Shown here: positions 1 to 41,123 of the stretch, piece after piece
How positions within the stretch are numbered: the first letter of the stretch is position 1
Layout of the letters: each line of letters starts with the position of its first letter
DNA from: a virus
DNA length: 41,123 nt
IMG/VR virus record: IMGVR_UViG_3300050821_003273
Span: 1-41,123 of that record
Direction: 5' to 3' (one strand)
The notes under the pieces: model-generated
Databases searched by the model: none
What the model was told of the DNA's origin: nothing
What the model saw: only the letters and a program-made list of their open reading frames with translations
Position numbers and translations under genes: made by a program

Positions 1-88
1 TCAAGATCGACTTGTGTCCGAGGAGCTCCTGGACGGTCCGGAGATCGACGCCTCGCATGACCAGGCGCGACGCGAAAGTGTGTCGCAG
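1..88. repeat. Terminal direct repeat, copy 1 (identical to 41036-41123)
   Basis: The first 88 bases are identical to the last 88 bases. This is the usual signature of a circular or terminally redundant molecule cut open by an assembler. Joining the ends gives about 41,035 bp and restores a complete integrase gene. Caution: the same sequence also lies inside the second integrase (37641-37728), so a contig that broke at a repeat could look similar. Confidence 0.9.
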
Positions 89-964
89 GTCGTGCCAGGT
101 GAAATTTTCGATCTTGGCCTCGGCGAGACACGTCTCAAACCAACGTCGCCAGTCTCTTTGACCGTCGACGTCGGCCTTCCGTTCTGGAATGACGGAGCTC
201 GAGCCGGCCGATCGCGCATAGAGCTTCTCGAGCGCCGCGCGCGCCTCGGGGTTTACGGGAACGAAGCGCCGGCCAGTTTTGCCGGATACCGTGATGACGC
301 CGAGGCCGAGATCGACGGCGTCCCAGGTCATCGAGAATTGCTCGCCGCGGCGGATCCCGGTATAGAGCGCCAGGTCGAGCTCGGCTTCGCGGTCGGGACA
401 GAGCTCGCGGATTTCCTTGCGGAGCGCGATCTCCTCGTCGTCCTGAAGGAAGCGGATACGAAAGTCGTTTTCCTTGTACTTCGGCACCGTGCGGACGGGG
501 TTTTGTTCGACTTTGCCTTCCTTCACGCCGAATGAAAAAATACTGGACAAGAGCGATCGGTACCGATTGCACGTCGAGCCGGATCGCGTCTCTTTCATCT
601 TGCGGAGGAGATCGTCGATTGCCGTCGACGTCACGCCGGAGGCCGGCATCGTTCCGAATTCCTCGAGCAACGTCTCGAGGCGGAGCGTGTCGTTATGATG
701 GGAGAGCGGAGCGAGTCGGCCTTTCTTCGCGGCCAGGCATTCCTCGGCGAGTGTGCGGAATGAGATGCGGTCCTTCCGACTCGGAGAAGTGAAACGGCCG
801 GCGCGGATCTCGCCTTTCCTCTGAATGTAGGCGTCTCGCGCCGCGGACCAGCGGCCGACTTTTTCGCGATGCCGGCGGCCGGCCGCGTCATAGTAGAGGA
901 TCCACCAAATATCGGAGCCGGCGGGATGTTCGAACACTCCGCGATGCTTCGCCTTGTCCCGCAT
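1..964 (-). CDS. int: Tyrosine recombinase/integrase 1, N-terminal and most of catalytic domain (runs off the window edge)
   Basis: Phage integrase that recombines attP with the host attB site. The frame is open from ATG at 964 to the window edge (321 codons) and continues in the piece at 40914-41123 if the molecule is circular, giving 361 aa. Seen: an N-terminal arm-binding-like part (WWILYYDAAGRR), a core-binding SAM-like helical region, then catalytic motifs GIRRGEQ (Arg I), GKTGRRF (Lys), [10 protein letters not shown] (His/Arg II) and LGHKS. The nucleophilic Tyr (TMRYAHL) lies in the other fragment. A GAAGG ribosome site sits about 10 nt upstream inside the preceding RHH gene, which ends 2 nt before the ATG, so the two are co-transcribed. 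It is a paralogue of integrase 2 at 37570-38616, with 98-108 bp of perfect nucleotide identity. Confidence 0.93.
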   Translation of the reverse strand, partial: MRDKAKHRGVFEHPAGSDIWWILYYDAAGRRHREKVGRWSAARDAYIQRKGEIRAGRFTSPSRKDRISFRTLAEECLAAKKGRLAPLSHHNDTLRLETLLEEFGTMPASGVTSTAIDDLLRKMKETRSGSTCNRYRSLLSSIFSFGVKEGKVEQNPVRTVPKYKENDFRIRFLQDDEEIALRKEIRELCPDREAELDLALYTGIRRGEQFSMTWDAVDLGLGVITVSGKTGRRFVPVNPEARAALEKLYARSAGSSSVIPERKADVDGQRDWRRWFETCLAEAKIENFTWHDLRHTFASRLVMRGVDLRTVQELLGHKSIL

Positions 965-37305: not shown

Positions 37306-37573
37306 CGTTTTCTCCTGCGATCGCGAGACGTTCGAGATACTCCGTCCATCTCTCGCGAAGCTCTGACCAAGTCATCACGTTCTCGACGCCTGGCAATGTG
37401 AAGCCGGCGACGCCGGCGCGCGTATTGTATTGCCATCCGATCGGCATGAGCTCGCCGGCGGGATTTCTCACTTCGTAGGATCCGGAGCCTTTGCCTCCGC
37501 CGAAGTTTAAATGACAGGTCATCCTCTTCGTCCATCCCGTCGGCTTCTCCGGAAGTGTGAGAGGCAAGCTCAC
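37295..37573 (-). CDS. Hypothetical protein coupled to integrase 2
   Basis: A 92-aa protein. GTG 37573 overlaps the integrase 2 stop (GTGA), so translation is coupled; ATG 37522 is an alternative start giving 75 aa. Sequence MTCHLNFGGGKGSGSYEVRN and MTWSELRERWTEYLERLAIA suggests a small beta domain followed by a helix. Not recognised. Its linkage to an integrase raises the possibility of a recombination accessory factor. Confidence 0.6.
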   Translation of the reverse strand: MSLPLTLPEKPTGWTKRMTCHLNFGGGKGSGSYEVRNPAGELMPIGWQYNTRAGVAGFTLPGVENVMTWSELRERWTEYLERLAIAGENDDP

Positions 37574-38616
37574 TTCGTTCCGATCTTCTCGATCGCGGCC
37601 GCGCGATGATCCTTCGAGAGATGCGCGTATCGCATGGTCATCAAGATCGACTTGTGTCCGAGGAGCTCCTGGACGGTCCGGAGATCGACGCCTCGCATGA
37701 CCAGGCGCGACGCGAAAGTGTGTCGCAGGTCGTGCCAGTGGAAATTTTTTACGCCGGCGGCCTTCGCGGCCTTCTCGAGCCAACGTCGCCAGTCTCTTTG
37801 ACCGTCGCGCTTCGTCTCCGGACAAACATACTCCGAGCCGATCGGCCTCGAGCCGTTCGCCGTGGCCGTCAAGAGGAGCTCCTCGAGAGCTTTCTTCGCG
37901 CCGTCGTTTATCTCGATAAACCGGCGGCCTGTCTTGCCATGCACCGTCAAGAGCATCGTATTGAGATCGACGTCCTCCCATTTGAGAGAGAATTGCTCAC
38001 CGCGGCGCATCCCGGTATAGAGCGCGAGATCCATCTCCGGCTCGCGATCGGCGTACTTCCTTTGGATCTCCGCGCGCAAGGCCTTCTCTTCGCCGTCGCC
38101 GAGATAGCGGACGCGGTATTCGTTCTCCCGATATCGCTCGACTCCTGCGCAGGGATTCGCGCGCACGCGGCCGGACTTGAGAGCAAATGAATAGATGGAA
38201 GAGACGAGAGCTCGAAAGCGATTCACGGTCGAGCCGGAAAGGCCTTCGCGCTTCATGTCGGCGAAAATTTCCCGGAGCTTCCGGCCGTTTTCCAATTGCT
38301 CGACAGGGATCGCGCCGATCAAGGGGAGGATCGCGTCCAGGCGCCGGACGTCCGTCTCGTAGGACGACTTCGCGAGGCGGAGCTTCTTATCCTCGAGCGC
38401 GATGATCGCGAGCTCGCGGAACGTCCCGCGCGCGCGCGGCGGAACGAATTTCCCGTCCGCGACTTCCTGTAATCTTTGGGCATACGCGGCCAGAGCCTCA
38501 TGCTTTGGGCCGATCTTCTCTCGGCGCCGGCGGCCGGCGGTATCGCGATAATTGATCCACCAAACGCCGGAGCCTTTCTTCTTTTCGAAAACTCCGCCGC
38601 TCTTTTTGGCGATCAA
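37570..38616 (-). CDS. Tyrosine recombinase/integrase 2
   Basis: A complete 348-aa phage-type tyrosine recombinase, start TTG 38616 with GGAG 10 nt upstream. Arm-binding-like N terminus (WWINYRDTAGRRRREKIG), SAM-like core-binding region (TFRELAIIALEDKKLRLAKS...), catalytic residues Arg204 (GMRRGEQ), Lys228 (HGKTGRR), His295/Arg298 (HDLRHT), His321 (LGHKS) and Tyr330 (TMRYAHL). All are present, so it should be active. It is the first gene of the minus-strand accessory operon, behind a strong promoter. It is a paralogue of integrase 1: overall protein similarity is moderate, but 108 bp are identical at the nucleotide level (37631-37738). Its own attachment site is not evident. Confidence 0.94.
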   Translation of the reverse strand: MIAKKSGGVFEKKKGSGVWWINYRDTAGRRRREKIGPKHEALAAYAQRLQEVADGKFVPPRARGTFRELAIIALEDKKLRLAKSSYETDVRRLDAILPLIGAIPVEQLENGRKLREIFADMKREGLSGSTVNRFRALVSSIYSFALKSGRVRANPCAGVERYRENEYRVRYLGDGEEKALRAEIQRKYADREPEMDLALYTGMRRGEQFSLKWEDVDLNTMLLTVHGKTGRRFIEINDGAKKALEELLLTATANGSRPIGSEYVCPETKRDGQRDWRRWLEKAAKAAGVKNFHWHDLRHTFASRLVMRGVDLRTVQELLGHKSILMTMRYAHLSKDHRAAAIEKIGTK

Positions 38617-38792: not shown

Positions 38793-39287
38793 CTATTTGA
38801 TCTGTTTTGTTTTGCCGCACGCGGCGATAACCGGCGCCGGATCCGGGATCTCAAAGATCGCGGAGATCTGCGCGCCGTTCGCGTAACTCGCGACGCCGAT
38901 CTTGACGCTGTGACTTCTCAAGATCCGGCCGGCGTCGTTCGCGTTCATGTACAGGATCGACGGACTCCCGGCCTTTGCCCATGCGCTATGGACGATCTTC
39001 CCGTCGAGATTCGCCAGGACTCCGCCTTCCTGTACCATTTGAGTAAAGGCGACGCCTGTCCGATCGAGGCGGCCGGCCTTGCAAGAGTAGACGAGCTCGG
39101 CGACGCGAACGCCTTCGGCCGAGACGCCGGCAATCGAAAACGTTTGCGCCTTCTCGTTTGTGACGACGTTCGATCGAGTCTCTTCCGTCCAGCGAACCGG
39201 CGCGACCGTTTGCGCGGTCGCGCTACAACTAGATATCAACAAGACAGCAATGACAGCAATGACAGCAATGACAGCGATATGTCGCAT
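38793..39287 (-). CDS. Exported lipoprotein, candidate lysogenic-conversion or exclusion factor
   Basis: A 164-aa protein with AGGAG 7 nt before ATG 39287. It has a lipoprotein signal peptide: MRH, a hydrophobic core of repeated AVI units (VIAVIAVIAVLL), then lipobox LISSC (Cys at about 21). The mature part is beta-rich (VAELVYSCKAGRLDRTGVAF, GVLANLDGKIVHSAWAKAGS, DAGRILRSHSVKIGVASYAN). The AVI repeat is made by a 9-bp tandem DNA repeat. Phage-encoded lipoproteins commonly block superinfection or alter the envelope. The same operon carries an SGNH hydrolase. Family not identified. Confidence 0.78.
   Translation of the reverse strand: MRHIAVIAVIAVIAVLLISSCSATAQTVAPVRWTEETRSNVVTNEKAQTFSIAGVSAEGVRVAELVYSCKAGRLDRTGVAFTQMVQEGGVLANLDGKIVHSAWAKAGSPSILYMNANDAGRILRSHSVKIGVASYANGAQISAIFEIPDPAPVIAACGKTKQIK
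39243..39278. repeat. 9-bp tandem repeat in the lipoprotein signal peptide
   Basis: Three perfect copies of GACAGCAAT (39243-39269) plus one near copy (39270-39278). Each unit encodes AVI or IAV on the minus strand. Changes in copy number keep the frame and would change only the length of the signal-peptide core. Confidence 0.9.
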
Positions 39288-39319
39288 TTGATTCTCCTGT
39301 GTACAGTTTATGGAAGTCA

Positions 39320-40027
39320 TTAGTTAGCGTCCAGTGTCGTTTCTGCGATTGGAGCCATAACGGCATAGCCTTTCGCGTTTGGATGTAGGCCGTCATCGGT
39401 CAGGTCCGCGAACATCGTCCCGTTAGGTGTCGACATCGCGGAGGAATAGTCCAGATAGGAGCATCCCGTTTCGGCGCAATAGCTTCTCGACCAGGCATTG
39501 ATCGCCGGGATGAGATCGGCATGGACAAACCGGCTTCCGGAGTCGAGGCCGTGGCCGAGAGGCAGGAGCGAGGCGAGGACGACGCGGATCCCATGCGCGC
39601 GAGCGAGCTCGCTCATCGCGCGCAGATTCGAAGTGACGGACTCCGTAGTCGAGGATTTGACGGCCAGATCGTTTATTCCGGCCAGGATGACGACCGTCTT
39701 CGGATGCAATTCGATGACGTCCTGGCGGAAACGGGCCAGGACCTTGCCGGTCGTCTCGTTCGCGATCCCGCGGTTTGTGTAGTCCTGGCCTGGGAAGAAT
39801 GCACCGTTCTTTGTCCAGAAGTCCGTTATCGAGTCGCCAACGAAGACGACGTCGGCCGAGCCGAGCGCCGCATTCGCTTCGCTATAGCGTCCGCTATAGC
39901 TTGACTCCGTCGGCAACAAGGCCGCGGAGATCGCCGGGAAGACGGCGACGATCTCGACGGCGAGGATGATCGCCACTATCGCGAGCGAGAAGTAAAAGTC
40001 GAAACGCTCTGCTTTTGACATATTCAT
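39320..40027 (-). CDS. Membrane-anchored SGNH/GDSL hydrolase
   Basis: A 235-aa protein. One N-terminal membrane segment (FYFSLAIVAIILAVEIVAVF, about 11-30) anchors a periplasmic SGNH hydrolase: block I VVFVGDSITDFW (Ser about 66), block II NRGIANETTG (Gly), block III ILAGINDLA (Asn), block V DDGLHPNAKGY (Asp and His). All four catalytic positions are present. It is expected to be an esterase or deacetylase acting on envelope sugars. In lysogeny it could change the receptor; it may alternatively act in the virion, but the membrane anchor argues against that. Follows two small proteins and precedes the lipoprotein on the same strand. Confidence 0.9.
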   Translation of the reverse strand: MNMSKAERFDFYFSLAIVAIILAVEIVAVFPAISAALLPTESSYSGRYSEANAALGSADVVFVGDSITDFWTKNGAFFPGQDYTNRGIANETTGKVLARFRQDVIELHPKTVVILAGINDLAVKSSTTESVTSNLRAMSELARAHGIRVVLASLLPLGHGLDSGSRFVHADLIPAINAWSRSYCAETGCSYLDYSSAMSTPNGTMFADLTDDGLHPNAKGYAVMAPIAETTLDAN

Positions 40028-40427: not shown

Positions 40428-40598
40428 ATGGCAGGCAAAAAGAAGGAAATCAAAGTAGCAGTTTTCGCACTCGTCGAGCCGGAACAGAAACGCCAGCTCG
40501 AGGAGCTCGCTCGAGCGAATCAGCGATCGATCGGCTTCCTGGTCCGGGAGGCGATCGATCAATACCTGGCGAGCTTGGCGAGCCTCAAAAAGAAGTAG
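40428..40598 (+). CDS. Ribbon-helix-helix protein beside attP
   Basis: A 56-aa protein: KEIKVAVFALVEPEQKRQLE, then QRSIGFLVREAIDQYLASL, a clear CopG/Arc-type RHH. It is the third convincing RHH in the genome. It is encoded towards attP and is divergent from the conversion operon. The repeated TCTATAGGTT elements upstream (40306-40410) may be its operators, which would make it a repressor of the conversion operon and itself. Its stop abuts the first attP-side repeat. Confidence 0.8.
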   Translation: MAGKKKEIKVAVFALVEPEQKRQLEELARANQRSIGFLVREAIDQYLASLASLKKK

Positions 40599-40690
40599 TT
40601 ACAGCCGAGGTTACAGCCGAGGTTACGCATAGGTGCGGCACCACGCGGTTTTTGATGGCTGTTTGATGGCTGTGACGGTCCGCTCTCGCC

Positions 40691-40780
40691 GCGACTCCCC
40701 GCAACTCCCCGCAACTGCATACTACTCATAACAAACGCTTTGGCTACTCCACGCTACTCCCCGCGACTCCCTGCGACTAG
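40691..40780. repeat. 10-bp direct repeats left of the attP core
   Basis: At least seven copies of a unit close to CCGCRACTCC in two groups (about 40690-40719 and 40741-40780), in phase within each group. Related TAACTCCCC units appear at the integrase 2 promoter. Likely binding sites for an integrase or excisionase. Confidence 0.8.
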
Positions 40781-40789
40781 GCGGAAACG

Positions 40790-40830
40790 GATCCTAAGTC
40801 TTGCGCGTCTGCCAGTTCCGCCACTCCCGC
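40790..40830 (-). repeat. 5' half of a tRNA-Leu(UAG) gene: attP core identity block
   Basis: Read on the minus strand, 40830-40790 begins GCGGGAGTGGCGGAA and continues through the D arm (CAGACGC) to the anticodon stem-loop CAAGA-CTTAGGA, with anticodon TAG at 40794-40796. This is the start of a bacterial tRNA-Leu. The complement of the anticodon stem and the rest of the tRNA are missing. A TATAAC -10-like box lies 19 nt upstream (40849-40854). This is not a complete tRNA gene but the block of identity with the host attB tRNA. Confidence 0.87.
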
Positions 40831-40913
40831 ATCGTTGAAAACAAAGACGTTATAGCACTTTTTCGCCGTGGCTGTTTTTGCCGATGGCTGTACAGGTGGC
40901 TGTGCTCGGAAAA

Positions 40914-41123
40914 TCACGCCGGCCTCCCGATCTTGACGACTTTCCGTCGCGCCGGCGCCGGCGCCGCGGCCGGGGAGAGTTTAGCAACGGCCGCGGCTTT
41001 ATGGTCGGGAGAAAGATGCGCGTACCGCATGGTCATCAAGATCGACTTGTGTCCGAGGAGCTCCTGGACGGTCCGGAGATCGACGCCTCGCATGACCAGG
41101 CGCGACGCGAAAGTGTGTCGCAG
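40914..41123 (-). CDS. int: Integrase 1, C-terminal part with catalytic tyrosine (enters from the window edge)
   Basis: Seventy in-frame codons from the right edge to TGA at 40914: [33 protein letters not shown] with the nucleophilic Tyr, then a basic Ala/Pro-rich tail ending KIGRPA. It continues the frame that runs off the left edge at position 1; the 88-nt overlap is shared by both. Together they make a 361-aa integrase. The unique tail differs from that of integrase 2, so this is not a copy of it. The stop is 10 nt from the last attP repeat. Confidence 0.92.
41036..41123. repeat. Terminal direct repeat, copy 2
   Basis: Identical to bases 1-88 (see that entry). Part of the block that is also identical in integrase 2. 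Confidence 0.9.

Follow-up and report, generated by a model that had tools for sequence, protein, structure and literature searches.

A phage attachment site with the 5′ half of tRNA-Leu(UAG) is predicted to rebuild the host tRNA gene behind the phage integrase

We found that an uncultured phage (the window, all 41,123 nt of IMG/VR record IMGVR_UViG_3300050821_003273) carries the 5′ half of a tRNA-Leu(UAG) gene behind its tyrosine integrase gene int1. The block at 40790-40831 is very probably the attP core of a temperate phage, at which int1 recombines with the host tRNA-Leu(UAG) gene inside the anticodon loop, the phage 5′ half rebuilding the tRNA behind int1. The features on which this reading is built are collected in Table 1.

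Table 1. Features around the candidate attachment site (window positions unless another record is named)
Feature	Position	Strand	Basis
int1, N-terminal part, start codon 964-962	1..964	-	Reading frame joined across the 88-bp direct terminal repeat
int1 (tyrosine integrase of 361 aa), C-terminal part with the stop at 40914; the gene runs across the circle join	40914..41123	-	Pfam PF00589, 1.4e-29
Arm region of attP towards int1, with GGCTGT repeats that match those beyond the core	40859..40903	.	Repeat search; putative function
TATAAC, -10-like box, candidate promoter element	40849..40854	-	Lies 18 nt ahead of tRNA nt 1; neither a -35 nor a consensus promoter; group not enriched
attP core: 5′ half of tRNA-Leu(UAG), nt 1-41, plus T at -1	40790..40831	-	L003 match; block common to L002, L004, L060, L209
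Anticodon loop CTTAGGA, likely 7-bp crossover (overlap) region	40792..40798	-	Invariant block of five attPs ends here; G002 core GCCTTAGGA
Arm region of attP beyond the core, with GGCTGT/ACAGCC repeats plus 10-bp ACTCCCCGCG-type repeats in two clusters; candidate Int arm sites	40601..40786	.	Repeat search; putative function
GDSL-type hydrolase gene between attP and int2	39320..40027	-	PF13472, 1.9e-28
int2, second tyrosine integrase, opposite side of attP from int1	37570..38616	-	PF00589, 7.4e-31
int2 in other records	L002 2319-3698; L004 5180-6358; G002 (L084/L147); G017 (L155/L156)		

Minus-strand positions 40830-40790 of the window (GCGGGAGTGGCGGAACTGGCAGACGCGCAAGACTTAGGATC) are identical at 41/41 nt to the 5′ half of a complete tRNA-Leu(tag) gene that ARAGORN called in a different IMG/VR record (L003, 113-199), and the identity becomes 42 bp (40790-40831) once the T at -1 is counted. 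The anticodon TAG occupies nt 35-37 and the loop CTTAGGA nt 33-39 (window 40798-40792). Identity to the tRNA ends at nt 41, 2 nt beyond the anticodon loop, from where the window continues with CGTTTCCGCC and the L003 tRNA with TTGTGGGG. A sequence-only reading of this DNA had proposed that these bases are the first 41 nt of a tRNA-Leu(UAG) gene, and the exact match, ending just past the anticodon loop, confirms it. An exact 41-nt match within 41 kb lies far beyond chance. ARAGORN called no complete tRNA in the window, and Rfam returned no meaningful match in the attP region.

A direct terminal repeat of 88 bp (1-88 = 41036-41123) indicates that the contig is a 41,035-bp circle with int1 spanning the join. 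The tRNA half lies 83 nt downstream of the int1 stop on the same strand, and the repeats found on both of its sides are what an attP with arm sites would be expected to look like. Direct repeats also surround the tRNA halves of two related phages, 226 bp apart in L002 and 217 bp apart in L004.

The same tRNA half follows a related integrase gene in four other phages, by 77 nt in L004 (integrase 62% identical to int1), about 225 nt in L002 (53%), 8 nt in L209 (58%, best segment) and 33 nt in L060 (41%). Alignment of the five attPs with L003 shows one long invariant block, with a few variable columns inside, that begins at nt -1 and ends on the final anticodon-loop base. A chance match, and likewise a tRNA fragment with no link to integration, were rejected as candidates on the conserved limits of this block and its adjacency to the integrase. 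That the fragment is a tRNA relic or a captured piece (e.g. from imprecise excision) without a role in integration is very unlikely, since block limits and integrase adjacency are exactly kept among phages whose integrases are 41-62% identical, repeats flank the core on both sides, and integrated examples share the junction type (G015, below); on the other side stand the two D-arm substitutions that distinguish the L209 half from its neighbours, and the fact that no lysogen of this phage was seen.

When the integrase side and 5′ half of the window are joined in silico to the 3′ half of L003, a full tRNA-Leu(tag) results; the reciprocal window/L003 junction gives no tRNA. In the mechanism that we propose, int1 (the candidate, int2 being present as well) would recombine the attP core with the host gene for tRNA-Leu(UAG), crossing over in the anticodon loop. 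One end of the prophage would then hold a truncated relic consisting of the host promoter and the host 5′ half, and the other end would hold the phage 5′ half joined to the host 3′ half, a rebuilt tRNA gene 83 nt downstream of int1 and on its strand. In this topology the rebuilt gene would follow int1, remote from the host promoter, and the tRNA, severed from its own promoter, would be transcribed from phage DNA, by read-through from int1 and/or from a local promoter. Unlike the block, the attP context, the relatives, the tRNA obtained in silico and the G015 junction, the integration event of this phage and the source of its tRNA transcription are predicted here.

Junctions of the predicted kind were found in an unrelated integrated prophage, IMG/VR record IMGVR_UViG_3300021176_000024 (G015, ends L091 and L044). 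At one end, an upstream tRNA 3′ end is followed by the tRNA-Leu 5′ half and then phage DNA, and at the other end the integrase stop is followed after ~10 nt by a complete tRNA-Leu(UAG). Judged by this gene order, G015 is an integrated element in the reverse arrangement with both predicted junction types visible; its integrase is only ~21% identical to int1. The earlier proposal of a reversed attP, with the 5′ half in place of the common 3′ half, thus holds up on the block beside related integrases in four other phages, the chimera that yields a full tRNA, and the G015 junctions.

Other prophages use the same target differently. In G002 (IMGVR_UViG_3300050821_005250), whose integrase is 58% identical to int1, the two ends carry the 5′ and the 3′ half of the host tRNA, respectively, and directly behind the integrase the phage brings its own complete tRNA-Leu(UAG) (L147 185-271 minus, L148); the shared core is the 9-bp GCCTTAGGA. 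G001 (L104; L149 444-527 minus, 1656-1745) follows the same logic with an unrelated integrase: in both, the host tRNA-Leu(UAG) is split at the anticodon and a complete tRNA-Leu(UAG) lies a few nt behind the integrase. G016 (L003) is classic, with the host 5′ half joined to a phage 3′ half and an orphan 3′ half at the far end. On these gene orders, the anticodon loop of tRNA-Leu(UAG) is one target used in three ways, the window using it in the reverse way. As a 9-bp core suffices in the related G002, the rest of the conserved half would be best explained by tRNA function.

Given that the related G002 and the unrelated G001 do so at this very target, the window might also belong to a tRNA-dependent lysogeny in which the host tRNA is broken on integration and replaced by a whole one from the phage. 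We regard this as scarcely credible, because the window lacks a complete tRNA and its 42-bp core, where a short one of ~10 bp would be expected, rebuilds the full tRNA. Classic 3′-half integration was also rejected for the window, as the block does not reach the tRNA 3′ end and identity stops at nt 41.

Next we consider the transcription of the rebuilt tRNA. The sequence-only reading had placed a TATAAC box 19 nt upstream that would give the tRNA a phage promoter: the box is there, the spacing is 18 nt, and the promoter role was not borne out, as the box has no -35 and is not conserved. We found no sigma-70 consensus promoter above chance, no -35 match and no terminator in 40500-41123. That the tRNA is made from this dedicated promoter and not by int1 read-through is possible, though we hold it short of probable. 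The box matches at 5/6 positions and its distance is one usual for tRNA promoters, L027 (TATAAC) and L122 (TATAAG) have comparable boxes at similar places, and for Fionnbharth a phage tRNA has been shown to have a strong promoter upstream (PMC10865867). Against it, the box is degraded in relatives (TGTAAG in L002, GGTAAG in L004), and the -10-like boxes of 13 cases with an upstream integrase score close to shuffled sequences (mean 3.85/6 versus 3.49/6). Furthermore, the integrase stop lies only ~8-12 nt before the tRNA in L209, L024 and L044, a tight spacing that favours co-transcription with the integrase. All 13 of the upstream-integrase cases among the matches listed (window and L209 included) are codirectional with the tRNA close behind, and integrase read-through is therefore at least as likely as the TATAAC promoter.

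Apart from the window and L209, these cases come from a wider IMG/VR pattern scan, which by design cannot see phages with the 3′ half alone and whose counts are lower bounds; its integrase profile was built from int1 relatives and may miss unrelated integrases. At least 8 orphan 5′ halves directly follow an integrase on the same strand (L002, L004, L027, L060, L067, L072, L123, L127), among which L027, L067, L072, L123 and L127 have the arrangement of the window with other integrases. Complete tRNA-Leu(UAG) genes have a directly upstream, codirectional integrase at 3 or more loci (L024, L044, L122) and a downstream integrase at a minimum of 12. A second tRNA-Leu piece was looked for in the L024 and L122 records and was not found, so both could also be of the replacement type. 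None of the survey matches listed has an upstream integrase on the opposite strand. Outside the 13 cases, L088 consists of a half followed by an antisense integrase, and in the MAG contig C128 the half diverges from its integrase.

Beyond attP, the minus strand at 38793-40027 holds, between attP and int2, the GDSL hydrolase gene and a second small protein gene. The order int1 - attP - int2 is shared by five records, the window included, with int2 related to int1 and on the same strand, and would place one integrase near each prophage end. Integration would leave the promoter of the host tRNA facing the hydrolase and small protein genes. G017 (L155, L156), a prophage of the int1 group, has ends that share a 35-bp non-tRNA repeat, which indicates that the two-integrase layout is not restricted to tRNA targets.

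Any dependence of the host tRNA supply on the prophage would follow from topology. We tentatively consider a full promoter swap, which as a whole seems rather doubtful. Under this hypothesis, a host tRNA that we assume to be essential (its copy number being assumed too) would become the last gene of the int1 transcript, and silencing or loss of prophage transcription would starve the cell of tRNA-Leu(UAG). The host promoter would in turn drive the left-end genes (GDSL hydrolase, small protein, int2), and the clade would move between rebuilding (window, L002, L004, L060, L209) and replacement (G002), with two integrases at opposite ends.

The reverse arrangement of the window is rare and already described in kind. 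Zhao and Williams reportedly dealt with reverse-orientation tDNA elements in 2002 (J Bacteriol 184:859). The reverse tDNA elements have, like the window, an attP with the tRNA 5′ part, an adjoining tyrosine integrase and a predicted orphan 5′ fragment at the host-promoter end; no difference in principle was found, the particular points of the window being that the phage is uncultured and that a second integrase lies across attP. Among the tDNA islands of Islander, the fragment is 5′ in 159/3919 and 3′ in 3760 (PMC4383910), and both bacterial and archaeal reverse elements have been cited (PMC6563490; PMC8371274). For archaeal pTN3-like integrases, attB is a tRNA gene 5′ half, that of tRNA-Leu in the case of pTN3, and the recombinant tRNA is stated to be expressed from the integrase promoter (PMC8371274); the pTN3 integrase gene is split on integration, whereas the att site of the window lies outside int1. 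In the classic phages with a 3′-half attP, which are most of those that integrate in tRNA genes, the 3′ end comes from the phage and the promoter stays with the host; G016 shares with the window both the target gene and an anticodon-loop crossover.

tRNA-dependent lysogeny was described for actinobacteriophages (Fionnbharth and others) with a call to look elsewhere (PMC10865867). It has in common with the window an anticodon-loop target and, as predicted here, a lysogen tRNA made from phage DNA, but the window would rebuild the host tRNA through its 42-bp core and has no tRNA gene. In sequence, G002 and G001 agree with this known type; if their hosts are not actinobacteria, they would answer the question left by that study. 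Three points are less ordinary: tRNA-Leu(UAG) recurs as the target, one integrase group both rebuilds and replaces the tRNA, and a second integrase lies beyond attP. If the rebuilt tRNA needs phage transcription, lysogeny would be tied to host translation without a phage tRNA gene, and such a dependence, if true, would be a milder counterpart of tRNA-dependent lysogeny. With reverse, classic and replacement cases matched at one target, their cost and control can be compared.

The exact left and right arms of the window occur in no other IMG/VR record, and an integrase scan of GTDB genomes, which gave four loci only, did not find the host genome of this phage. The best of these loci, on the MAG contig SURF_8 (L128), was rejected: its half differs from the complete tRNA-Leu(UAG) of that genome, which makes the binning doubtful, and the contig is not used as proof. 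There (L128 1-260; G022 C128 14367-14405), the tRNA-Leu(UAG) 5′ half is divergent from a related integrase, and TTGACA-N17-TTTACT lies between the two, pointing at the half. The integrase profile run against 379 genomes of the SURF_8 phylum gave no further reverse tRNA-Leu(UAG) case among the loci retrieved; one locus from this search (L179) has an integrase followed by tRNA-Leu(UAA). Among the annotated phages listed, the closest integrases are ~30% identical to int1. The integrase of phiS13, an Oenococcus tRNA-Leu phage, adjoins a complete tRNA-Leu in the classic layout. In a bacterial genome (L169 1349 and 1508; G039 C17), an orphan 5′ half of tRNA-Leu(AAG), possibly an integration scar, lies 159 bp upstream of the complete gene, and G034 has a similar pair of matches. 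A further virus record (L212, G402) has three integrase-profile matches on two strands.
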